From Oscillospiraceae bacterium (GTDB lineage Bacteria > Bacillota > Clostridia > Oscillospirales > Oscillospiraceae), in assembly GCA_017561205.1 (NCBI GenBank), contig JAFZDL010000078.1:1-58894 (forward strand): a stretch of 58,894 nucleotides of DNA, in the 5' to 3' direction. The notes beneath the pieces were generated by a model that saw nothing but the letters and a program-made list of their open reading frames with translations, was not told where the DNA came from and made no database searches. Made by a program: the position numbers and the translations under genes. Positions within the stretch are counted from its first letter, which is position 1. The number at the start of each line of letters is the position of its first letter. Shown here one piece after another: positions 15,837 to 27,921 of this stretch.

Positions 15837-16919
15837 TTATAGTTTTTCAAGATGCTTTATGTAAATGTTCCTTGTGTTTTGAAGGTCTGGGAAGTCTCGC
15901 AGGTCTTGGGGCCATTTGGTGGGAGTAAACTTAACACGGTCATTTACTTGCAAATCAGGATAACGATCTGCGGAAAAGAATAACCAATGCGTTTCATCAT
16001 CTTTATAAGGCTCCCCCGTGGGCAACAGTCCATCAATTTTCAGACATCTGTATCCGTTATCTAAGCCTCGATCTTCCTGCACCGTTGCATAGTAATAGCC
16101 TTTACTGTCTGAGTAGAGCATTTTGGAATTAATCACACGGCTTTCCAATGCTTGTGCATACTGGGAGCTTAACTGTTCAATCTTGTTTTTCAGTTTTGCG
16201 GACGATGTAATAAAGCTTGGATAAACGCGCTTAATAATATCTGTAATAGAAAACATATCATCCGCATTATCTAATCTGCGGATTTTATATTCGCTGTTTA
16301 GAAAACCTAACATACAGTTTTCGTTAATTTCAGGCAAAGCGATTACAATCTTGTGGGCATCCAGAAACCAAATAACCCCGGCCTCATTTTGACAATATGC
16401 ACTCTCGTAGTAATCTTTAGATAATAAGACAATATTAATCGCACTTTGCTGAAGATTAGTTTTGATTTCCCTTGAAATCTCTTCTTCAATATCATTACCA
16501 GGAAGAGAGGAACAAAAAATCTTATCCGCCGGGACACCGCACGAAGTCAGAAAGATCTCAATGATCTCTGCAAATTTCTTATCAACACTTCTGTGGCTAA
16601 TAAAGATTTTATCACCAACTATAGTCTGCGGTGCGGGAGAGCACTGATCGGCTGGTCCATCTTCGCTGTTAATCAAATAGAACTTTAATATTCCCAGCAC
16701 AGAGTTGGCATCGCGGATTGCAGTGCCATCCCGTAAGAAAATTGCACTATCGATGTTGGGCATATCTGATTCAAAGATATTACGTATTTCAACCAGTAAA
16801 TCAAATAGATCATTTCGCAGTTGGTCTGCAATATGAACATCTGCTTCATTATAAGCCTTGACCGCCTGTTCAACTTTTGCAATATATTCTTCAATGAACT
16901 GTCTCTTTTCTTTTTTCAA
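15837..16919 (-). CDS. TIR-domain protein, possible NAD-consuming effector (360 aa)
   Basis: A TIR domain occupies about residues 103-230: KIFISHRSVDKKFAEII opens it, and NIVLLSKDYYESAYCQNEAGVIWF holds Glu179 where the catalytic Glu of TIR NADases lies. The N-terminal ~90 residues are helical, and the C-terminal ~120 residues (YYATVQEDRGLDNGYRCLKID...VKFTPTKW) look like an unclassified beta domain. Bacterial TIR proteins often degrade NAD+ or make signalling nucleotides in anti-phage defence. The start is TTG 16919 with AAGGAT upstream. It is the last gene of a leftward operon with the DUF3990/DUF3791 module, 25 bases after the previous gene. The domain call is firm; the defence role is an inference. 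Confidence 0.85.
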   Translation of the reverse strand: MKKEKRQFIEEYIAKVEQAVKAYNEADVHIADQLRNDLFDLLVEIRNIFESDMPNIDSAIFLRDGTAIRDANSVLGILKFYLINSEDGPADQCSPAPQTIVGDKIFISHRSVDKKFAEIIEIFLTSCGVPADKIFCSSLPGNDIEEEISREIKTNLQQSAINIVLLSKDYYESAYCQNEAGVIWFLDAHKIVIALPEINENCMLGFLNSEYKIRRLDNADDMFSITDIIKRVYPSFITSSAKLKNKIEQLSSQYAQALESRVINSKMLYSDSKGYYYATVQEDRGLDNGYRCLKIDGLLPTGEPYKDDETHWLFFSADRYPDLQVNDRVKFTPTKWPQDLRDFPDLQNTRNIYIKHLEKL

Positions 16920-16944
16920 GTGTGTTCACATCCTTCTCTTTGAC

Positions 16945-17160
16945 TCAAGCAGGCATCATAGCCCCGCGGGATTTTAGATAGATATCAATATCATTGTTGA
17001 TATAATTATGCCCGGTGGTGTGGAGCACATCGTAGAACTCATAGATATAATCAAATACACCATAGTCACTGAAAAGCTTAGCAACCGCCTTGCCGGTTAG
17101 ATTGCGGTGCTGCTTATAGCTTTCCATACAGAATACGGTAAAGGTCATTTCTTTGCTCAT
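16945..17160 (-). CDS. DUF3791-like small protein (71 aa)
   Basis: The small protein (MSKEMTFTVFCMESYKQHRNLTGKAVAKLFSDYGVFDYIYEFYDVLHTTG in pattern) matches DUF3791: an N-terminal helix, the phrase LTGKAVAKLFSDYGV and a DVLHTTG turn. DUF3791 genes are usually found beside DUF3990 genes, as here, and may encode the neutralising partner. GGAGATAAGG lies before the ATG and 12 bases separate it from the preceding gene. Confidence 0.75.
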   Translation of the reverse strand: MSKEMTFTVFCMESYKQHRNLTGKAVAKLFSDYGVFDYIYEFYDVLHTTGHNYINNDIDIYLKSRGAMMPA

Positions 17161-17172
17161 AGCCTTATCTCC

Positions 17173-17409
17173 TTATACATCAGGGAAACGAATAGCTCCT
17201 ATCTGTTCCTCTTGTTCAAATAGTGAATATAGCATTTGTGTGCTGTATTGCCAGACTTTTGTCTCTTCTTTTTCCAATGCAGCATAAAGCTTGGATGCAT
17301 ACAGTTTCTTAATTGCTTCTTCGTGAGATATATTTTGCTTTTCTGCAATCATTGCTACCAAATCTGCGCTGATATAAGGCATCATTGCCGCAAATTGTTC
17401 CTGACTCAT
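17173..17409 (-). CDS. Small hypothetical protein of the DUF3990 module (78 aa)
   Basis: Begins MSQEQFAAMMPYISADLVAMIAEK after a GGAGGCAC site. It is predicted to be mostly helical and acidic, with an EEAIKKLYASKLYAALEKEETKVWQ segment. It lies between the DUF3990 and DUF3791 genes with 11-12-base gaps, so it is co-expressed with them and probably part of the same toxin-antitoxin-like module. No domain name was recognised with confidence. Confidence 0.65.
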   Translation of the reverse strand: MSQEQFAAMMPYISADLVAMIAEKQNISHEEAIKKLYASKLYAALEKEETKVWQYSTQMLYSLFEQEEQIGAIRFPDV

Positions 17410-17420
17410 AATGTGCCTCC

Positions 17421-17906
17421 TTATCCGATTTCCTTTGCCTCAATGAACTTTAAGTAGGACAGAGCTTTGTCTGTGTGCAGCGTCCATTGATCCCGAAGTA
17501 CTTCGGTTTTTAGTTTCTTAACAGTGTATTCTGCGTCGTAAGCGCCTGTTTCAAACAAGCGGATAGATTGATATACATTATCATCAGCAACCGGGCCGAT
17601 GTGCATATCTTTCATATCACCGACAGGAACACCTTTGCGGTTGTTAACCACAAACTCTAACCATTTCTCGTCGGCAGTTTCAAAATTATCAATGGACAAT
17701 ACTTTAGAAGCTGTATCTAAATCAAATTTATAGACGGACACATATCCAAATGCAGCATTGTGCCGTCTCATCTTGATCCTAGCCCAACGCTCTGCCTGCT
17801 CATAGGAGGTGGTTGTATAAAAGCCTACGCCAAAGTCCAAAAAGACGTCGCCCTTTCTAATTTCCGGCTTATCTACAAGGTCAATGCTTCCGTGATATAA
17901 GATCAT
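17421..17906 (-). CDS. DUF3990 protein, ADP-ribosyltransferase-like (161 aa)
   Basis: The opening MILYHGSIDLVDKPEI followed by DFGVGFYTTTSYEQAERWA is the DUF3990 signature. The family has been related to the ADP-ribosyltransferase fold, in which YHG and YTT-type segments line the NAD+ pocket. It could modify a protein or nucleic acid target and act as the toxic member of the module. Its ATG overlaps the stop of the upstream gene by 4 bases, and the 78-aa and DUF3791 genes follow. No DUF3990 enzyme activity can be confirmed from sequence alone. Confidence 0.8.
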   Translation of the reverse strand: MILYHGSIDLVDKPEIRKGDVFLDFGVGFYTTTSYEQAERWARIKMRRHNAAFGYVSVYKFDLDTASKVLSIDNFETADEKWLEFVVNNRKGVPVGDMKDMHIGPVADDNVYQSIRLFETGAYDAEYTVKKLKTEVLRDQWTLHTDKALSYLKFIEAKEIG

Positions 17907-18199
17907 GCTAACCCCTCCATAATTTTCGTAATAGCCTTCTGCTCTTGTCTTAGTGCCAAGAGCATTTTTTCATAATGTTTTCGTAGTTCCAATTGTTCTT
18001 TAATTTGAGAAACCACCTCAGGATCTTTTCCGATATATTCGTCGCATACCTTGCCATCCTTGCGGTACTTCAAATAATAATATTCCTTCTTGCGGCAAAT
18101 CAAAGAGCCCCTTGGGAGTTCTTCGATTCGTTTCTCATATTCTGCAATCATCTGCTCGTTGCGAATAGCTTCATTTTTAACAACAGAATTTATAAGCAT
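17903..18199 (-). CDS. Small coiled-coil protein heading the DUF3990 operon (98 aa)
   Basis: Two helical segments (residues ~12-30 and ~65-95, rich in Glu/Lys) surround a beta hairpin: PRGSLICRKKEYYYLKYRKDG then VCDEYIGKD. Proteins of this pattern recur next to DUF3990 genes, so it is probably a regulator or antitoxin. The ATG at 18199 is chosen; a TTG at 18211 is possible. It overlaps the DUF3990 start by 4 bases (ATGA). No firm family name is given. Confidence 0.6.
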   Translation of the reverse strand: MLINSVVKNEAIRNEQMIAEYEKRIEELPRGSLICRKKEYYYLKYRKDGKVCDEYIGKDPEVVSQIKEQLELRKHYEKMLLALRQEQKAITKIMEGLA

Positions 18200-18215
18200 A
18201 TCTATCACCAACTAC

Positions 18216-18447: not shown

Positions 18448-18578
18448 GACCGACTTTTGACCAACAAAGCTTAAGTAAAAGAAAATAACCGGTATAATAG
18501 CACTACATTTCGAAGGCTGTTATATCAGCAACCACTACATATCCACAAAGCCAAAAATATCTCATCGAGTGGGAATAA
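18448..18578 (+). repeat. Dispersed repeat B, copy 2
   Basis: Same orientation and order of words as 13012-13145, with scattered differences. It starts with GACCGACTTTTGACCAAC and ends with CATCGAGTGGGAATAA. A CCCTT/AAGGG hairpin with T's follows at about 18597-18614, giving another promoter-like/terminator-like pair. Confidence 0.75.
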
Positions 18579-18634
18579 TCCTACACACCTGAAAAACCCT
18601 TATTTCAAGGGCTTTTGCAGTTCTCGTTTCGCTA

Positions 18635-18685
18635 TTGACAGCAATATGACAGCAAAAATTGACTCCGTCCAAACTGGGCGGAGTC
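18635..18685 (+). other. Tandem TGACAGCA site plus hairpin
   Basis: TTGACAGCA and ATGACAGCA are spaced 11 bases apart, followed by a GACTCCG/CGGAGTC hairpin (about 18661-18685). The same tandem plus terminator arrangement occurs at 30372. It resembles the end of an integrated element. Confidence 0.4.
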
Positions 18686-18715
18686 GCTTGCATAATATAT
18701 ACGGAGAGAACATAT

Positions 18716-20659
18716 ATGGAAAGAGATAAACTAATCTCCCTTGTTACAAAGGCACAGAAAGGCGACCAGGATGCTCTTAACGACCTTTTTAATGCATTCT
18801 ATAATGATGTGTACTACTTTGCATTAAAGACCGTTAAAGACGAGGAAATTGCTTGTGATGTTACACAGGAGACCTTCGTCGAGATTATAAACACACTCGA
18901 CAAACTCCAAGAACCTGCTGCTTTCGTCAAGTGGATGAAACAAATTACATACCATCAATGCACACGGTACTTCAAAAAGAAGAAGGATGTCATTGTTGAC
19001 GAGGACGAAGACGGAAACACCATCTTCGATACCCTTGCAGAAGAAAATTCTGAATTTATTCCCGACGAGGCACTCGACAAGGATGAATTTAAGAATACCA
19101 TTATGGCAATGATTGACGAACTCTCCGAAGAACAGCGGGCAGCATTGATGATGTTCTATTACGACGAATTAAGCATCAAGCAGATTGCTGAAATTCAGGG
19201 CACAAACGAAAACACCGTTAAGAGCAGACTAAATTATGCGAAAAAAGGTATCAAGAAGTCTGTTGAGGACTACGAGAAGAAAAACGGTGTCAAACTCCAC
19301 TGTGTTGGTGTCCTTCCTCTCTTGCTGTGGCTCTTCAAGGATTACTTTGCACAGTCTGTGCCTGCTTCTGCGACCGTTGTTGCAGAAGGTGTCGCTACTG
19401 CGACTGGCACTGCCGTTACTGTTACTGCAACCGCAACGACTACTGCTACCGTCACCTCCGCAACCACCACGGCTGCGGTTGGTGTCGGTGCCAAGATTGC
19501 TTCCTTGCCGATAGCAACCAAAATTATCGCAGGTATCGTCGCAGCAACCATTGCAATCGGTGGTACTGTTGCTGTTGTTTCCAATAGAGATAACAACACT
19601 TCTGAGGATACTTCCAGTATTGTATCGAGCGAAGGAACCACTACAACCGATGATAATACAACGGGTGAGGATAAATACGAAGAAACCGTCCCAGAGCATA
19701 CTCCGTACCTTGTACCAGCAGGTGGCAAATACACCACAGTTGATGGCAAAATTTATTGTGCTGGTGAGTATGTAACCACTGCACCGCAAACAGGCGATAC
19801 ATTCGAAACTGCCGAATACACTTATCGGTATAATTTTGAAATGAACCGCAATTGGGAGACGGACAATATCGAGTGGATGCAAATAATAATGGACGGTTGG
19901 GGAGTTTCGGTTAATGATAATACTAAAACTACATACTCTCCATTTGACCAATCCATTAATAGTGCTCCCATAAAATCACTGTCACATACATTTATGGGCT
20001 GTGCAAATATGACCGTTGCTCCTCAAACCCCAGAAGGTGTCACCGAGTATTATTTCGCATTTGCCCAATGCACATCATTGAAGACGGCTCCGAGCATTCC
20101 CAATGGTGCGATTAATCTTAATTCGGCTTTTGTAGAATGTGTTTCCTTAACTGAAACACCGTTTTTACCTGATAGTGTCGACAATATAGGCAATGCCTTT
20201 ACCTTTTGCACATCGCTTACAACAGTCACAAATTTTCCATCAAATTTAAAGTATATGGCCGCTGCTTTTGACAGATGCGAAAACCTTGTTAATGTTCCCG
20301 ACTTACCCAATACCGTTGAAGAAATGCCGTGGGCATTCCAAGGTTGCTCATCGTTGGTTAAAGCACCTGTAATTCCCGCAAGTGTAAAAACTATGTATGC
20401 TGCTTTTATGTCTTGTTCTTCGCTTACAGGTACGGTAGAAATTAATGCAATTTTGCGAGAGGACAATATTCCGTGCAATAATTCGTGTGCTCTTTGTGCC
20501 TCTGGGCAATATGGAACATGTGAAAACTGCGGCGAGTGTTGTTCCTATGCTGATTGTTTTGCTGGCGAAACAAGACAACCTATTACACTAACAGGAACTT
20601 GCTCCAAACTTGAAGCGATTGCAAAAACCAATCTTTGGGGCAATGTTGTGGTCGGGTAA
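18716..20659 (+). CDS. Membrane-tethered ECF-type sigma factor with extracytoplasmic repeat domain (647 aa)
   Basis: Residues ~8-80 are sigma region 2 (DQDALNDLFNAFYNDVYYFAL...DVTQETFVEI) and ~125-180 region 4 (LSEEQRAALMMFYYDELSIKQIAEI...TVKSRLNYAKKGIKK). An Ala/Thr-rich linker (~215-260) leads to a transmembrane helix at ~264-288 (PIATKIIAGIVAATIAIGG). The outer part (~290-647) has a Thr/Ser/Asp stalk, six or so ~22-residue leucine-rich-like repeats of the form AFxxCxSLxxxPxLPxxV (~421-580), and a Cys-rich patch (NSCALC, CENCGECC). Ordinary ECF sigma factors are ~180 residues and soluble. ATG 18716 follows GGAGAG; the open frame extends to 18659 without a site. It heads a locus of surface proteins. 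The domain calls are clear; how signals reach the sigma half is unknown. Confidence 0.88.
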   Translation: MERDKLISLVTKAQKGDQDALNDLFNAFYNDVYYFALKTVKDEEIACDVTQETFVEIINTLDKLQEPAAFVKWMKQITYHQCTRYFKKKKDVIVDEDEDGNTIFDTLAEENSEFIPDEALDKDEFKNTIMAMIDELSEEQRAALMMFYYDELSIKQIAEIQGTNENTVKSRLNYAKKGIKKSVEDYEKKNGVKLHCVGVLPLLLWLFKDYFAQSVPASATVVAEGVATATGTAVTVTATATTTATVTSATTTAAVGVGAKIASLPIATKIIAGIVAATIAIGGTVAVVSNRDNNTSEDTSSIVSSEGTTTTDDNTTGEDKYEETVPEHTPYLVPAGGKYTTVDGKIYCAGEYVTTAPQTGDTFETAEYTYRYNFEMNRNWETDNIEWMQIIMDGWGVSVNDNTKTTYSPFDQSINSAPIKSLSHTFMGCANMTVAPQTPEGVTEYYFAFAQCTSLKTAPSIPNGAINLNSAFVECVSLTETPFLPDSVDNIGNAFTFCTSLTTVTNFPSNLKYMAAAFDRCENLVNVPDLPNTVEEMPWAFQGCSSLVKAPVIPASVKTMYAAFMSCSSLTGTVEINAILREDNIPCNNSCALCASGQYGTCENCGECCSYADCFAGETRQPITLTGTCSKLEAIAKTNLWGNVVVG

Positions 20660-20689
20660 AAAATAAAATAAAAATTTTTCAAAAAATCT

Positions 20690-20760
20690 AAAACTTTTCT
20701 AAATCGGCAATCCCCCTTGTTAACGAAAGGACAAAAGTCCTGACGAGCAAGGGGGATTTT
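20690..20760 (+). terminator. Terminator carrying bipartite element AAAACTTTT-N12-TCCCCCTTGTT (copy 1)
   Basis: AATCCCCCTTG (20709-20719) pairs with CAAGGGGGATT and a T-rich tail, with an inner GGAC/GTCC hairpin: a good terminator for the sigma gene. The left half also carries AAAACTTTT (20690-20698) and TCCCCCTTGTT (20711-20721), which recur with identical 12-base spacing at 21064-21095. Confidence 0.65.
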
Positions 20761-20797
20761 CTTATGCACATTAAATCGAATACAAGGAGGTTTGCCT

Positions 20798-20971
20798 ATG
20801 GAGAATACGGAAAACCACCGTGAACATTATAACCTCTATTATATCTTTGCGGCCGACAAGCAGAAGCATCCAATGCCTCCTGAAATGGCCGAAGAAATTC
20901 GAAAGAATATTTTGAGAAACCTTTTGCAGAAATCAAATCATCTAAACAACGAAGGTTCGTCGATAAGTTAA
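20798..20971 (+). CDS. Small hypothetical protein (57 aa)
   Basis: The frame has a strong AAGGAGG site 7 bases before its ATG and encodes MENTENHREHYNLYYIF, then a PPEMAEEIRKNILRNLLQK helix. There is no signal peptide or membrane segment. It lies between the sigma-factor terminator and the secreted coiled-coil protein, in the same direction. The strong translation signal supports a real gene. No family was recognised. Confidence 0.6.
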   Translation: MENTENHREHYNLYYIFAADKQKHPMPPEMAEEIRKNILRNLLQKSNHLNNEGSSIS

Positions 20972-21063
20972 AAATTTCTTAAATGTTGCAATTTCTTACA
21001 AAAAGTCTATAATATAGATAAATTACAACTCTGTTTATAAACAAAGAATTTTTTGAAGATTTT

Positions 21064-21095
21064 AAAACTTTTTGAATTTCTCGTTCCCCCTTGTT
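21064..21095 (+). promoter_or_regulatory. Bipartite element AAAACTTTT-N12-TCCCCCTTGTT (copy 2), possible ECF promoter or RNA element
   Basis: AAAACTTTT (21064-21072) and TCCCCCTTGTT (21085-21095) repeat the sequence and spacing of copy 1. Here the second half forms only a short CCCCTT/AAGGGG hairpin. It sits 53 bases before the next gene, so it could be a promoter element read by the tethered sigma factor, or a leader structure. Confidence 0.4.
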
Positions 21096-21147
21096 GATGT
21101 AAGGGGCGAAAAACCTTAACAAAATACATATTAAGGAGACTTAAAAA

Positions 21148-21810
21148 ATGAAAAAGACAGTTAGAACTCTCACAGTATTGGTAATGGCAGTGTTAATGCT
21201 TACCATTTCAACCATCCCTGCAATGGCAGCAAATTTTGATTCCGAGACCGCAAACAGCGGAATTACTTTTAACAATGAGGTCACCGACTTTATTATTGGA
21301 GCACAAGAATTGCTTGATTCTATAATGGGTAATGAAGAAAAGCAACAAGCAAGCGCCCAAAACGAAACGAACCAAAGTTGGCAGCAGATTGAAGAAGAAG
21401 TAAATCAGAAGAAGGAAGAATGGGCTAACAAGGAAGCAGAATGGGCAGCCAAGCAAGAGGAGTTTAAAAAGCAAAAGGAAGAAAGAGAGAAACAGCACGA
21501 AGAAAAGTGGGCCGCTCTGGAAAGAGAACAAAAAGCCATGGAAACAACCGTCATCATAATTATTGTCACCTCTGTCCTGCTTGTCCTTGCCGAAATTATG
21601 TATATTCTTATCGAAGCACCCAAGTGCGGCATGTCCAGATTTTGGGCCCTCGTACCGTTGTTCAGCAATTTCTTTGGCCTGATCGTGTTTATCGTCGTTC
21701 GTTCTAATCGCAAAACATCTACAAGCACCCACACCGTTACTTGTCCTACTTGCAGCAGTGTGCACCCCGCTGGAACAACCGAATGTCCCATTTGTGGCAC
21801 AAAGTTATAA
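21148..21810 (+). CDS. Exported coiled-coil protein with membrane helices and C-terminal zinc ribbon (220 aa)
   Basis: A signal peptide (MKKTVRTLTVLVMAVLMLT...IPAMAA, residues 1-27) is followed by an outside segment with a charged coiled coil (~70-130, EEVNQKKEEWANKEAEW...). Two hydrophobic helices follow (~133-155 and ~165-188), and a C-terminal zinc ribbon has CPTC and CPIC. The TM helices would place the ribbon on one side of the membrane, probably inside after an odd number of crossings. AAGGAG lies 9 bases before ATG. A truncated copy of its first ~50 codons occurs at 27108. Function unknown. Confidence 0.75.
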   Translation: MKKTVRTLTVLVMAVLMLTISTIPAMAANFDSETANSGITFNNEVTDFIIGAQELLDSIMGNEEKQQASAQNETNQSWQQIEEEVNQKKEEWANKEAEWAAKQEEFKKQKEEREKQHEEKWAALEREQKAMETTVIIIIVTSVLLVLAEIMYILIEAPKCGMSRFWALVPLFSNFFGLIVFIVVRSNRKTSTSTHTVTCPTCSSVHPAGTTECPICGTKL

Positions 21811-21825
21811 TAAAGGAGAATGACT

Positions 21826-22332
21826 ATGTATTGCATTAAGTGTGGCAAAGAAATTGGAGCAAATAATTCTTTCTGTCCTGAATGCGGAGCCAAGCAAACT
21901 CCCACCTATAAGGAAGTGTTTGTTCGAAACGGTATTTCTGAGAAGGATTTTATCGCAAACATCAACAAGTGGTTTCAGTGGCATCCCAAGGCAGCGAACA
22001 TTACCTGCAAGTTTGGCATGGATACCGCTATTGGCCTTCTCGCAAATAAGTATGAGCTCAATCAGTTCGTAATTGAATATGAATTGTTCGAGCACAACAA
22101 CGAAAATCAGTATGGTCTTGTTAAGGAAGAGTCCATTGCTTTGATGAAAAAAAGTTCCAAAGAGTTCATGGGTGAATGGAAGCAGTCCCATCCCAATGTA
22201 AAAGTTGTAGATTGGGAAGGAGGAACACACGCAAGAGGGTATACTGTATCCCACCTTATGGGTGGTTTTGGGGCCCGTAACAGATTGAATATTTATATCC
22301 TGTTCAAGTTCCCCCGCAACAAAGAAAATTAA
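21826..22332 (+). CDS. Zinc-ribbon protein of unknown function (168 aa)
   Basis: The N-terminus MYCIKCGKEIGANNSFCPECGAK is a canonical four-Cys zinc ribbon. The rest (about 30-168) is a soluble domain with FIANINKWFQWHPKAANITCKF and GGFGARNRLNIYILFKF, not recognised. The start at 21826 is preferred to ATG 21820 because AAGGAG lies 7 bases from it but only 1 base from the earlier ATG. It follows the preceding zinc-ribbon gene by 15 bases and precedes the lipoproteins by 13, indicating one operon. Confidence 0.75.
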   Translation: MYCIKCGKEIGANNSFCPECGAKQTPTYKEVFVRNGISEKDFIANINKWFQWHPKAANITCKFGMDTAIGLLANKYELNQFVIEYELFEHNNENQYGLVKEESIALMKKSSKEFMGEWKQSHPNVKVVDWEGGTHARGYTVSHLMGGFGARNRLNIYILFKFPRNKEN

Positions 22333-22345
22333 GGAGTAGATTTAA

Positions 22346-23371
22346 ATGAAAAAATTATTAGCATTTTTACTTGTAATGATTATGGTATTATCGCTTGCTG
22401 CTTGCGGAAACGACGATAAGGATACTGCTTCTGGCGACAACACTTCCACCACACAGACCGAAGGTTCTGAGAGCACTGGCACTACCAATGAGAGCACAGG
22501 TTCTTCTGATGCAACCGACAACACCGAGACCAGTACTCCCGCTACCGATAGTACGGAAGACACCAGCACTCCCGATGAGACTTCCAAACCTTCCGAAACC
22601 ACGAAACCCAGTGAGACGACAAAACCCAGCGAGACAACAAAACCCTCTGAAACCACTAAACCTGAACATAAGCATAGTTATACTTCCAAAGTAACCACTG
22701 CCGCCACTTGTGGCAAGGACGGTGTTAAGACATTCACTTGCTCCTGCGGTGATACTTACAATGAAAAGATTGCTGCTACTGGTCAACATAGTTGGGGCGG
22801 ATGGAGTAATGTCAAAGAACCTACCTTTACCGAAAACGGAAAATCGCAAAGAACCTGTAAAACTTGTTCTGCAACTGAAAGTACAGAACTGGAAAAATTG
22901 AATCCGAGTATGGAATTTTGGGACACTGGCCTTTATTTCGTTATGAAAAACTCTGATGGGTATAATCAAAATGCCATCAAGGGTGACCGCTTGTTGGACT
23001 ATGCTGCTTACAAGTTTGTCTTTATGGATGGTATGGAAAATCCCTCTGCCACATTTGATGATGTAAAGGCGAAACTGAAATGTTTTAACTTAACCGATGC
23101 CGTCATTTCTCAAATGAAGCAGAGCCCTCGTTATCAAGGTGAAAACAGTTATAATATGAGTTACACGGAAGAAAATCCGTTGGGAAATCCTACTGTGCGT
23201 GGCTTTGTACATAACGGCGGTAATAATTTCACAGTATATTATTCCGTCCACGAAGATTGGGGCGACACAGAAGGAACATATTGGAAAGTTGAGTTGGAAT
23301 ACAATAAGGGCATCCAAAAATACACCTCTATTGTCAAAGTCGAATCTGTACCCTCTAACATTACAATGTGA
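22346..23371 (+). CDS. Surface lipoprotein with SETTKP repeats (341 aa)
   Basis: The lipobox LSLAACG (Cys20) marks a membrane-anchored lipoprotein. A low-complexity Ser/Thr/Asp stalk (~22-105) ends in four SETTKP repeats, then HKHSYTSKVTTAATC...FTCSCGD, a Cys-containing module common in surface proteins of gut Clostridia. A C-terminal domain (~190-341) includes LLDYAAYKF and GFVHNGGNNFTVYYSV. It is the first of a tandem pair; its neighbour shares signal, stalk and module. It lies in the operon after the zinc-ribbon gene. Ligand or partner is unknown. Confidence 0.85.
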   Translation: MKKLLAFLLVMIMVLSLAACGNDDKDTASGDNTSTTQTEGSESTGTTNESTGSSDATDNTETSTPATDSTEDTSTPDETSKPSETTKPSETTKPSETTKPSETTKPEHKHSYTSKVTTAATCGKDGVKTFTCSCGDTYNEKIAATGQHSWGGWSNVKEPTFTENGKSQRTCKTCSATESTELEKLNPSMEFWDTGLYFVMKNSDGYNQNAIKGDRLLDYAAYKFVFMDGMENPSATFDDVKAKLKCFNLTDAVISQMKQSPRYQGENSYNMSYTEENPLGNPTVRGFVHNGGNNFTVYYSVHEDWGDTEGTYWKVELEYNKGIQKYTSIVKVESVPSNITM

Positions 23372-23391
23372 TAAGAATGGAGAGAATCACA

Positions 23392-24456
23392 ATGAAAAAA
23401 CTATTCGCACTTTTACTCGCATTGACCCTGATGTTATCGCTCGCTGCCTGCGGTGGAGACGATAAGGACACCGCTACTGGTGACAACACTTCCACCACAC
23501 AGATCGAAGGTTCTGAGAGCACTGGCACTACCAATGAGAGCACAGGTTCTTCTGATGCAACCGACAATACCGAGACCAGTACTCCCGCTACCGATAGTAC
23601 GGAAGGCACCAGCACCCCCGACGAGACTTCCAAACCTTCCGAAACCACGAAACCTAGCGAGACAACAAAACCCTCTGAAACCACTAAACCTGAACATAAG
23701 CATAGTTATACTTCCAAAGTTACTACCGATGCTAAATGTGATAAAGATGGTGTAAAGACCTTCACTTGTTCCTGCGGTGATGCCTATACCGAAAAGATTG
23801 CTGCAACAGAACACAAGTGGGGTAATTGGAAAGTAGAATCTTATGCCCTTATAGGAAAGCCTGGCACAGAAAAGCGAACTTGCTCAACTTGTTCTACATC
23901 TGAAACCAAGGAAAGAACTGCAAATGCAATTGCAAACTCTTTTGACGATGGTGGCCTTGCATATATTGCTTTGCAAAGCGGTCGAATTAACGGATATAGT
24001 TTGCTCGAATATGCCTCTCACGAACTCCACGAGCACCTGCATCATCCTGTTCCGATGGAAACAATTTTCAATGCATTGTCTGAAAGATTTAATATTACTG
24101 CTGAATTGAGAGCAGATATGATTGCTGCAATAGAAGAGTCGAGCAAGTATAGTAACCAGTTTGGATATGATAAAACCAACGGTACTCTTGAACTGCAATA
24201 TCCTGGCGAGCATTATGGCGATAGTCGTCTTCTTGGATATGTTCATAATGGGGGTAACAACTATACTATTTACTGCGAATTCGGTGAATATGATTACAGA
24301 ACAGACGATTTTACCTATGTAACATTGAAGGCAACTTTGGAGTATAATAAAGTTAATGGAAACCCCAACAAGTATATTTCTTTTGAAATGGTAAATTCTA
24401 CTCCTAACAATATGGTTGCTTGTCCCAAGGATGAAAGAGGCGACATCTTCGGCTAA
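23392..24456 (+). CDS. Surface lipoprotein, tandem paralogue (354 aa)
   Basis: It starts at ATG 23392 after GGAGAG (the open frame begins earlier at 23368) and has the lipobox LSLAACG. The stalk and HKHSYTSKVTT...FTCSCGD module are nearly identical to those of the upstream gene at the DNA level, with three rather than four SETTKP repeats. The C-terminal domains are diverged (SGRINGYSLLEYASHELHEHL, GYVHNGGNNYTIYCEF) but share the same plan. This points to recent duplication or gene conversion of the first half with divergence of the functional half. Confidence 0.85.
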   Translation: MKKLFALLLALTLMLSLAACGGDDKDTATGDNTSTTQIEGSESTGTTNESTGSSDATDNTETSTPATDSTEGTSTPDETSKPSETTKPSETTKPSETTKPEHKHSYTSKVTTDAKCDKDGVKTFTCSCGDAYTEKIAATEHKWGNWKVESYALIGKPGTEKRTCSTCSTSETKERTANAIANSFDDGGLAYIALQSGRINGYSLLEYASHELHEHLHHPVPMETIFNALSERFNITAELRADMIAAIEESSKYSNQFGYDKTNGTLELQYPGEHYGDSRLLGYVHNGGNNYTIYCEFGEYDYRTDDFTYVTLKATLEYNKVNGNPNKYISFEMVNSTPNNMVACPKDERGDIFG

Positions 24457-24474: not shown

Positions 24475-24512
24475 ACATCCCCGTGAGTTCGTGCTCACGG
24501 GGATGTTTTTTA
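24475..24512 (+). terminator. Terminator of the lipoprotein operon
   Basis: ACATCCCCGTGAG pairs with CTCACGGGGATGT around a 6-base loop, then a T-run. Confidence 0.9.
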
Positions 24513-24733: not shown

Positions 24734-24938
24734 AAGTCATCCGAACCGCAGGACCACTCACTTCAAGATTTTGCTGTCAGAAAAATAGTGACAGCAGGTT
24801 TTGACAGCAAAAACCTTTGATAATACGGATAATAGAGATCATTCGCATACAAAGAGTTCCTATTATCGTCGAAAACGAGAACTTTTTGGTAGGTTTCGGT
24901 ACATACGATATTGAGTGGGAATGACCCCGTGTGGCTAT
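24726..24938 (+). repeat. Dispersed repeat A, copy 2, forming the 5' leader of the aminotransferase gene
   Basis: It matches 242-454 over nearly its full length. Here no terminator follows; the repeat ends about 50 bases before the aminotransferase ATG, so it is transcribed as a ~250-nt mRNA leader. It has the same inverted repeats as copy 1. Confidence 0.75.
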
Positions 24939-27090: not shown

Positions 27091-27282
27091 TATAAGGAGA
27101 CTAAAAAATGAAAAAGACAGTTAGAACACTTATTGTAATGGTAATATCAGTGTTAATGCTTACCATCGCAACCATCCCCGCAATGGCAGCGGACTTCGAT
27201 TCCGAGACCACAAACGACAATGTTTCCGACTTTATTAAGCAAATGTGCAAAGAATTGAAAGAATGTAACTATAAGGGAAATA

Positions 27283-27360
27283 TAATATCACTGAAACCGC
27301 AAGGTTTCAATATCACTTTTGTCTTGCAAAAATATCACTCCAACGAAGTTGGAATATCAC
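27283..27360 (+). repeat. AATATCAC-type hairpin repeats
   Basis: Four or five copies of ATATCACT are interleaved with small hairpins (GAAACC-gcaa-GGTTTC, CCAAC-gaa-GTTGG). The arrangement is irregular and short, unlike CRISPR. It resembles small palindromic repeats scattered through gut Clostridia genomes. Confidence 0.55.
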
Positions 27361-27400
27361 TAAAACCACTTGTATCTATTTCGTGCTCGAAAGTCAAACG

Positions 27401-27431
27401 AAAATCCGTTCTCGTAAGAGGGCGGATTTTT
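27401..27431 (+). terminator. Terminator-like hairpin
   Basis: AAAATCCG pairs with CGGATTTTT across a 14-base loop, followed by T's. Confidence 0.5.
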
Positions 27432-27921
27432 GTTTGTATTATTCACTATTCATTATTCATTAAAGAAGAACGGCTTTTCAATGAATAATGAATATTGAAG
27501 TCGCTTCGCTGATGAATAATGAATTGTAGGTTTTTCAATTCTGTATGCCTTTAGAATCCGAAAGCGGCTGTATTCGTCGATAAACGTGTACTGGAAATAG
27601 CCTTCGCCTTCTGCGTTTATTCGCAGAGGGCATTTTATACTTATCCCCACCGGGTTGTGCCAACGGACTTGGGGAACAGGCTAAATGGGCAATTTTTATA
27701 AGCACCTATATTAGACTGTTAATTGTATCTATGGAAATGTTTTTCATTCTACAAAGGGGAATAGTTAATGTTCTCCTATGATAGAAGTCTGTTAAAGAAC
27801 AAATTTGATTGTTCTATAACCCAATAAACAGGGGTTGTAAAATAGATCCGCTACGGGATTTACTGCGATTTTCCATTCCGCAATACGCCCGTAATTTTCT
27901 TATCTGTTCCGGTTATTCTTC
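27432..27921. other. Gene-free stretch with palindromes
   Basis: ATTCATTATTCATT (27448-27461) is inverted at 27480-27493, and GCTTCGC-containing short repeats follow to about 27525. Smaller hairpins (GAACAA/TTGTTC near 27797) occur further right. No frame with a ribosome binding site is seen; the tail may hold the terminator of the leftward cps genes. Confidence 0.4.

Follow-up and report, generated by a model that had tools for sequence, protein, structure and literature searches.

In the stretch of DNA analysed here (the window: 58,894 nucleotides (nt) of an Oscillospiraceae bacterium, from a single contig, C78, of an incomplete 1.8 Mb genome in 114 contigs), a locus at positions 18,716 to 24,456 is headed by a gene whose 647-residue product joins an extracytoplasmic function (ECF) sigma factor to a transmembrane (TM) helix and an outer leucine-rich repeat (LRR) domain. 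This sigma-TM-LRR protein is probably one of a family of membrane-spanning ECF sigma factors with exchangeable sensing ectodomains, which would read promoters beside their own genes and have their outputs at the cell surface. The architecture, the one predicted helix, the family, the promoter-like sites and the covariation between a sigma residue and a promoter base are read from the sequences themselves.

Architecture and family of the sigma-TM-LRR protein

18716..20659, + strand: sigma-TM-LRR protein, 647 amino acids (aa), with ECF sigma factor, membrane helix, BspA-type LRR ectodomain and Cys patch (ATG at 18716, stop codon ending at 20659; Pfam, hydropathy and family comparison)
18785..18985, + strand: sigma region 2, aa 24-90, including His80 (Sigma70_r2, E 5e-9, 36 bits vs a cut-off of 24)
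19097..19246, + strand: sigma region 4, aa 128-177, with the TVKSRL helix (Sigma70_r4_2, E 1.1e-14; invariant columns in 70 sequences)
19292..19336, + strand: conserved hydrophobic motif after region 4, KLHCVGVLPLLLWLF, aa 193-207 (Leu194 kept in 69 of 70 aligned sequences)
19337..19519, + strand: Ala/Thr-rich linker, aa 208-268, 61 residues of which 32 are Ala or Thr (composition)
19520..19582, + strand: single membrane helix, aa 269-289, rich in small residues, with Gly-Gly (hydropathy and alignment)
19988..20356, + strand: LRR_5 repeats of the ectodomain, aa 425-547 (Pfam E 1e-12; PDB relatives 4fs7, 4gt6 and 6mlx)

The sequence-only reading had placed sigma regions 2 and 4, a membrane helix, LRR repeats and a Cys patch (aa 587-614) in one chain, and this order and its coordinates are borne out by Pfam and hydropathy; the matches to Sigma70_r4_2, Sigma70_r2 and LRR_5 all lie over their cut-offs, LRR_5 being the sole Pfam match of the ectodomain at E 0.001. 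The N-terminal part falls in group 4 (ECF), having regions 2 and 4 only, retained contact residues and ECF relatives in the PDB, and no region 3 family stands among the Pfam and NCBIfam matches listed for the protein. W73, TVKSRL and other sigma residues that are invariant in the 70 aligned sequences are kept here, contrary to the loss that the earlier reading had named as a possible refutation. A single membrane helix, likewise a point on which that reading depended, is predicted from a hydropathy peak of 2.41 at aa 270-288 (aa 194-212 reach only 1.38), and a Lys at its start is kept in 62 of the 70 sequences. Hydropathy predicts no second helix or N-terminal signal peptide, as no 19-residue stretch starting before aa 189 reaches 1.2; an N-in, C-out topology is therefore likely. 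No Pfam match to a zinc-finger anti-sigma-like domain was found in the window protein or in seven relatives, and the stretch before the helix is the Ala/Thr linker.

The reading frame is more than a chance one, as the sigma-helix part recurs in relatives at 26-60% identity, and these comparisons support a single chain that joins a surface domain to a transcription part. A search of 60 related genomes recovered the same N-terminal design with other ectodomains, and a paralog with 58% identity over 297 aa is found on contig C88 of the same genome. In a scan of named genomes with an eight-row alignment, the best 80 of 569 relatives include Oscillospiraceae, Lachnospiraceae, Christensenella and Butyrivibrio, all 80 loci bearing names of Clostridia or Bacillota apart from a few called plainly "bacterium"; the search for this domain order in other Clostridia, proposed earlier as a check, thus finds the sigma-helix part widespread with differing ectodomains. 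Among the matches listed for 394 genomes of the order, with six candidates scored per genome, two kinds are seen, one running through the helix (frames of at least 333 aa) and one ending near position 185 (frames mostly of about 200 aa). Among those listed for 398 genomes across the phylum, the through-helix matches are the window genome's two and one of the same class, with G730 and G553 ambiguous.

The family set (loci from L046 on) consists of 114 matches, 111 of them unique, of which 104 cover the sigma start to past region 4. A helix follows the sigma part in 101 of the 104 and exactly one does so in 94, a share that is biased upward, the query having contained the helix and the named-genome loci having been its best matches; those without a later helix are L102 together with L065 and L074, whose frames are cut by contig ends. 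In the 94 one-helix relatives the N-side of the helix is more positive than the other in 69, equal in 14 and less positive in 11. Tails past the helix range from 10 to 1032 residues with a median of 361, some of them cut (11 of the 111 frames run into the end of their locus). The window protein belongs, in a tree of 117 rows whose bootstraps are not fully settled, to a clade of 12 with support of 100/100, and 11 of the 15 "plain" ECF rows form one group at 99/99; the plain rows L075 and L018 sit on long branches. Two candidates for plain ECFs were rejected as cut or broken family members, namely L065, at a contig end, and L155 (578-2190), where an in-frame TGA separates sigma from helix.

Pfam recognises 23 families in total in 101 ectodomains, chiefly LRR_5 (8), LRR_8 (7), LRR_4 (5), Big_2 (4) and WG repeats (3), with RCC1, choline-binding, PdaC and DUF3298 matched once each; in the search of 44 genomes for DUF3298 (RsiV-like), the single ectodomain match was not tied to any named locus. 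The LRR domain of the window protein resembles those of L048 (E 3e-49) and L128 (E 2e-12), both of the window clade. The ectodomain of the paralog differs from it and is weakly like those of L050 and G022 (E 2e-7 and 3e-5); the L050 and G022 domains themselves resemble those of L051 and L052. Judged from these comparisons, ectodomains are exchanged on a conserved sigma-helix part.

Candidate promoters and sigma residue 80

20675..20720, + strand: predicted sigma-TM promoter P1, with A/T tract, TAAAAC and -10 element CCCCTTG (matrix and pattern matches)
21049..21094, + strand: predicted sigma-TM promoter P2, 5' of the surface operon (matrix and pattern matches)

The two 68-nt stretches at 20663 and 21037, which hold these candidate promoters, are 72% alike; the sequence-only reading had recognised neither promoter. 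The element recurs 3' of the sigma gene in the paralog and in seven close relatives (G034, G022, L047, L048, L049, L051 and L052); in L046 it lies 5', and the second sigma gene of G022 showed none. A matrix was built from 17 sites, contributed by 10 of 11 close loci (none came from the second G022 gene), two of 17 initial matches, in L047 and G034, having been dropped as unrelated and two L047 sites added by eye. Over the 58,894 bases of the window it scores above 14 only at P1 and P2, and the best score in a shuffled control (one pass over 1.3 Mb) is 18.3. Applied to 93 family genes outside the training set, the matrix gives 30 same-strand matches within 600 nt of 27 genes (16 upstream, 14 downstream), a rate of 0.294 per kb vs 0.029 antisense and 0.0157 elsewhere in the loci, 19-fold over the latter. 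With the bar raised to 18.3 there are 17 matches in 15 genes, at 0.166 per kb vs 0.010 antisense and 0.0101 elsewhere. Many of the sites combine an A/T tract, TAAAAC and a GTC -10 element. A regular expression, written after the matrix matches had been seen, so that the matrix is the cleaner test, finds 41 matches, 28 upstream and 13 downstream, at 34 of 95 genes, with 5 antisense, 28 elsewhere and none for the reversed motif; the 95 include two training loci, L126 (the window) and L156 (the paralog), both without a match.

The -10 element is often CCCC in the window clade vs CGTC in most of the family. Two patterns allowing at most 3 mismatches yield only three sites in the window's own genome, all beside sigma-TM genes: a 16-base gap recovers only the paralog's one and a 17-base gap the window's two. 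A merged pattern run on 61 genomes of the genus yields five sites, spread over G000, G022 and G034 and none farther than about 900 nt from a window-type sigma gene; its reversed control yields one. As some of these sites went into the motif, and two of the seven known in those three genomes escaped the pattern, the telling part is the lack of matches elsewhere. At P1 and P2 (20700-20735 and 21085-21105) the -10 and start region coincides in part with an inverted repeat, CCCCTT..AAGG(GG), that recurs in several relatives. The paralog gene itself is probably transcribed by sigma-A, because TTGACT-17-TATAAT precedes it.

Residue 80 of the sigma part is His in the window protein and Asn in most relatives, and aligns with Asn88 of Mycobacterium tuberculosis SigH, Trp73 and Ile77 matching SigH Trp81 and Ile85. 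According to the available text of the SigH structure paper, Asn88 bonds to its -10 base and other residues there may set specificity (PMC6411747). At 56 adjacent sites of 46 of the 104 family genes, the second -10 base pairs with this residue as Asn with T (37 of 43), His with C (4 of 4), Ser with T (3 of 3), Arg with A (4 of 4, from three genes) and Thr with T (2 of 2). Permutations, which ignore the relatedness of the genes, reached this pairing in 0 of 20000 cases over the 46 genes and in 62 of 20000 within eight Tyr79 genes. In a looser scan, 8 sites combine His with a C-run -10 element, and 36 of 45 Asn sites have GTC. Since the sister genes L050 (His, CCC), L052 (Ser, CTC) and L047 (Arg, CAC at both sites) differ in both residue and base, the data suggest that the two have changed jointly and repeatedly. 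With predicted promoters beside family genes and this covariation, the sigma half looks live.

The microprotein, the surface operon and the flanks

20798..20971, + strand: conserved microprotein (REHYNLYYIFAADK..PPEMAEEIRK), with a possible alternative TTG start at 20792 (sequence family)
21148..21810, + strand: signal-peptide, coiled-coil membrane protein with a C-terminal CPTC..CPIC (zinc-ribbon score below the Pfam cut-off)
21820..22332, + strand: zinc-ribbon protein (Zn_Ribbon_1, 28.6 bits, cut-off 25)
22346..23371, + strand: lipoprotein 1, lipobox LAAC (by eye)
23392..24456, + strand: lipoprotein 2, lipobox LAAC (by eye), a tandem copy with diverged C-terminus
24475..24506, + strand: strong terminator-like stem-loop at the end of the operon (sequence)

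The same-strand layout that had been described downstream of the sigma gene (a small open reading frame (ORF), two zinc-ribbon proteins and two tandem lipoproteins) stands, save that the score of the first zinc-ribbon candidate, ORF 21148-21810, is sub-threshold. The lipoproteins are identical at 125 of 143 N-terminal residues and at 60 of 178 C-terminal ones, the divergence noted earlier. They had been offered as sensors or outputs; because they lie behind a predicted promoter of the sigma-TM protein, they are read as outputs rather than sensors, and are probably outputs of that protein. A second, partial copy of ORF 21148 is seen in ORF 27108-27488: its first 108 nt fall inside 114 nt that match the signal-peptide start of ORF 21148 at 87% identity, after which the two diverge, and it has no promoter motif.

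Co-occurrence of the neighbourhood, the other proposed check, is found in part: a lipoprotein (by eye) is among the next sigma-strand genes in 7 of the 10 close loci with downstream sequence (the window, C88, G034, G022 twice, L048 and L052), and relatives of the microprotein stand beside close genes. In the wider family, the next frame after the sigma gene is on the same strand in 60 of 78 genes, those with less than 600 nt downstream having been excluded, and a rough regular expression marks 16 of the next-frame proteins as lipoproteins and 13 as carrying other signal segments, missing some clear cases and including some doubtful ones. Domain scans of 55 of these 60 proteins (five doubtful frames, L061, L067, L088, L106 and L152, were excluded) show LRR, zinc-ribbon and S-layer domains recurring. 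On the claim that no separate anti-sigma factor is encoded, Pfam and NCBIfam recognised no anti-sigma domain in the sigma protein and nine neighbours of the window, and no anti-sigma family occurs among the 25 listed of the 63 families from the 55 downstream proteins of relatives; the microprotein is a candidate for one. A Spo0A-like response regulator (by eye) lies directly 5' of the sigma-TM gene in G034 and G022 (L041, 4812-5525; L042, 4581-5441).

The flanks of the locus, 18544-18690 and 24760-24930, hold similar short stretches (ATCGAGTGGGAATAATCC and ATTGAGTGGGAATGACCC, 83%) and a repeated GACAGCA, which would fit insertion of the 6.3 kb block as an island. Adjoining it on the - strand, positions 15837-18211 encode a TIR-domain protein, a DUF3990 protein and a small protein with a sub-threshold DUF6788 match, a group that may be a defence or mobile-element cluster.

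Proposed mechanism, alternatives and known systems

In the proposed mechanism the N-terminal sigma half would be cytoplasmic, the flexible linker and one helix would cross the membrane, and the ectodomain, here an LRR domain, would sense an outside cue. The sigma factor would be made and held at the membrane until a signal at the ectodomain frees its sigma half or presents it to RNA polymerase, cleavage within or close to the small-residue-rich helix being the likeliest means of release. The freed sigma factor would then read P1, for the microprotein, and P2, for the zinc-ribbon and lipoprotein operon, whose products would remodel the cell surface, and the microprotein would probably bind the sigma half as feedback. 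We infer the N-in topology, the sensing, the cleavage, the role of the microprotein and the use of P1 and P2 in cells.

Several results weigh against this reading, the bias of the helix share and the relatedness of the permuted genes among them. The fusion label needs 5 changes on the tree, of which starred branches force 3; the tree thus does not unite the family in one clade or show a single origin of the fusion. Within 600 nt, 66 of 93 genes are without a matrix match and 61 of 95 without a regular-expression site, and in 28 genomes of other members the bare TAAAAC/GTC pattern occurs at 59 sites (0 to 8 per genome) vs 49 for its reverse; this short form is not distinctive genome-wide. Six of the 56 sites depart from the residue 80 pairing, all of them Asn80 sites without T (5 A, 1 C); the window's own sites, with a spacer one base longer, fall outside the strict covariation count, and the paralog's site TCTCCTAT (Arg80) is an ambiguous fit to Arg-A. 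The available text on M. tuberculosis SigL describes another residue, His54, that also sets specificity at the same -10 base (PMC6372665). A sigma-A-like site at 20986-21013, 5' of P2, may be an additional feed of the lipoprotein operon.

The alternative that fares best, a serious if minority possibility, is that the microprotein is a true anti-sigma or co-sigma factor in a two-protein switch, the membrane part serving only as anchor or sensor. Listed earlier simply as a small ORF, it is not incidental, as it belongs to a conserved family beside sigma-TM genes. Among 234 candidate ORFs around 104 genes (a set that included the seeds), members of its type, here type A, accompany the paralog and a further seven close genes (iterated E values of 7e-19 to 6e-26), which with the window makes nine sigma genes in all, and L048 holds one more copy behind its lipoprotein; most carry the motif H-Y-N-L-Y-Y-L-F-x-x-D-K or near, and in L046 and L129 type A lies 5' of the sigma gene. 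The 61 genomes of the genus hold four strong type A matches (4/61), all beside window-type sigma genes, and one weak match in G446. A second microprotein, type B, lies just upstream of 12 sigma genes, and in 10 of these its end is no more than ten bases from the start of the sigma gene. These distributions would suit a partner; types A and B, however, have no clear sequence relationship, and the window microprotein is preceded by a predicted sigma-TM promoter, the position expected of an output. Generic small ORFs just upstream are found at 39 of 100 sigma genes vs 91 of 365 control genes, a weak excess, and the claim for the microprotein therefore rests on the sequence families. The microprotein could be the missing partner of the sigma half, in which case the system would not be strictly one-component. 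The one-component surface-to-transcription device first proposed is accordingly kept in part: one chain, no recognised anti-sigma domain, retained key residues and candidate promoters favour it, but a conserved microprotein could be a partner.

It is somewhat less probable, and on balance doubtful, that the sigma half is never released and works at the membrane on mainly nearby promoters, helped by the long flexible linker. Such action has precedents in ToxR and CadC, activators that act while membrane-bound; they share with the window protein one helix between a cytoplasmic transcription part and an outside sensor, and differ in being DNA-binding activators rather than sigma factors. The long, low-complexity linker would fit, as would the restriction of the window-clade motif to the vicinity of sigma genes in its own genome and the 61 genus genomes. 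A small regulon, however, is equally expected of a released sigma factor, a pattern that missed two of seven known sites in three genomes may have missed distant sites too, and a helix rich in small residues would suit cleavage.

That the adjacent sites are those of a different ECF sigma factor in the cell is quite improbable: TAAAAC and GTC are generic ECF promoter elements, but the -10 element tracks residue 80 of the neighbouring sigma protein, in the sisters L050 and L052 as elsewhere, and the clade motif is absent from the 34 genus genomes among G001-G036 that have no window-type sigma among the matches listed. Least probable is that the sigma half has degenerated and survives as no more than the cytoplasmic stump of a surface protein; the modest region 2 score speaks for this, and against it stand the retained W73, TVKSRL and other residues, the promoter-like sites and the residue 80 covariation.

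The membrane-spanning sigma factor with exchangeable ectodomain can be set beside known systems. In the canonical arrangement an ECF sigma factor is paired with a membrane anti-sigma factor of the RsiW/RsiV type, two proteins carrying an outside signal to an ECF promoter, whereas the window has a single chain and showed no anti-sigma domain. ECF52, ECF53 and ECF48 of Actinobacteria (SCO4117) are ECF sigma factors fused C-terminally to a membrane helix and an outside part, for which proteolytic activation has been proposed (PMC8999054, PMC5826349); the window protein and its family share the C-terminal helix. As far as the available text of these sources goes, they differ in having a zinc-finger anti-sigma-like domain, which was not found in the window protein or seven relatives, and ECF52 in having a proline-rich stretch and a carbohydrate-binding domain, in place of which the window ectodomain is LRR and variable across the family, and in being described from Actinobacteria only, whereas sigma-TM hosts are Clostridia. 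IutY (ECF243) of Pseudomonas putida likewise has sigma and membrane part in one chain, from which cleavage by Prc and RseP frees the sigma factor; in the available text it carries the fused anti-sigma domain of iron cell-surface signalling, again not found in the window protein or seven relatives (PMC8999054). Because no anti-sigma-like domain was found, the protein is filed as a variant working like the known membrane-fused ECFs and not as a member of them. No description of the Clostridia sigma-TM family was found in the open-licence literature, and it may be grouped in the 2021 ECF re-classification (NAR gkaa1229).

A bolder extension, rather unlikely as a whole, would see Clostridia-wide plug-in sensors: a tethered sigma chassis with swappable ectodomains, firing only adjacent promoters, insulated from paralogs by a residue 80/-10 code and held by the microprotein as a minimal anti-sigma factor. 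If the favoured reading is true, gut Clostridia would have a widespread one-chain route from the cell surface to the promoter, with target promoters predicted for many family members. The natural link between residue 80 and the -10 base makes the suggestion in the available text of the SigH structure paper (PMC6411747) directly testable, and could guide the design of insulated promoters. The swappable ectodomains would be a handle on what gut Clostridia sense.

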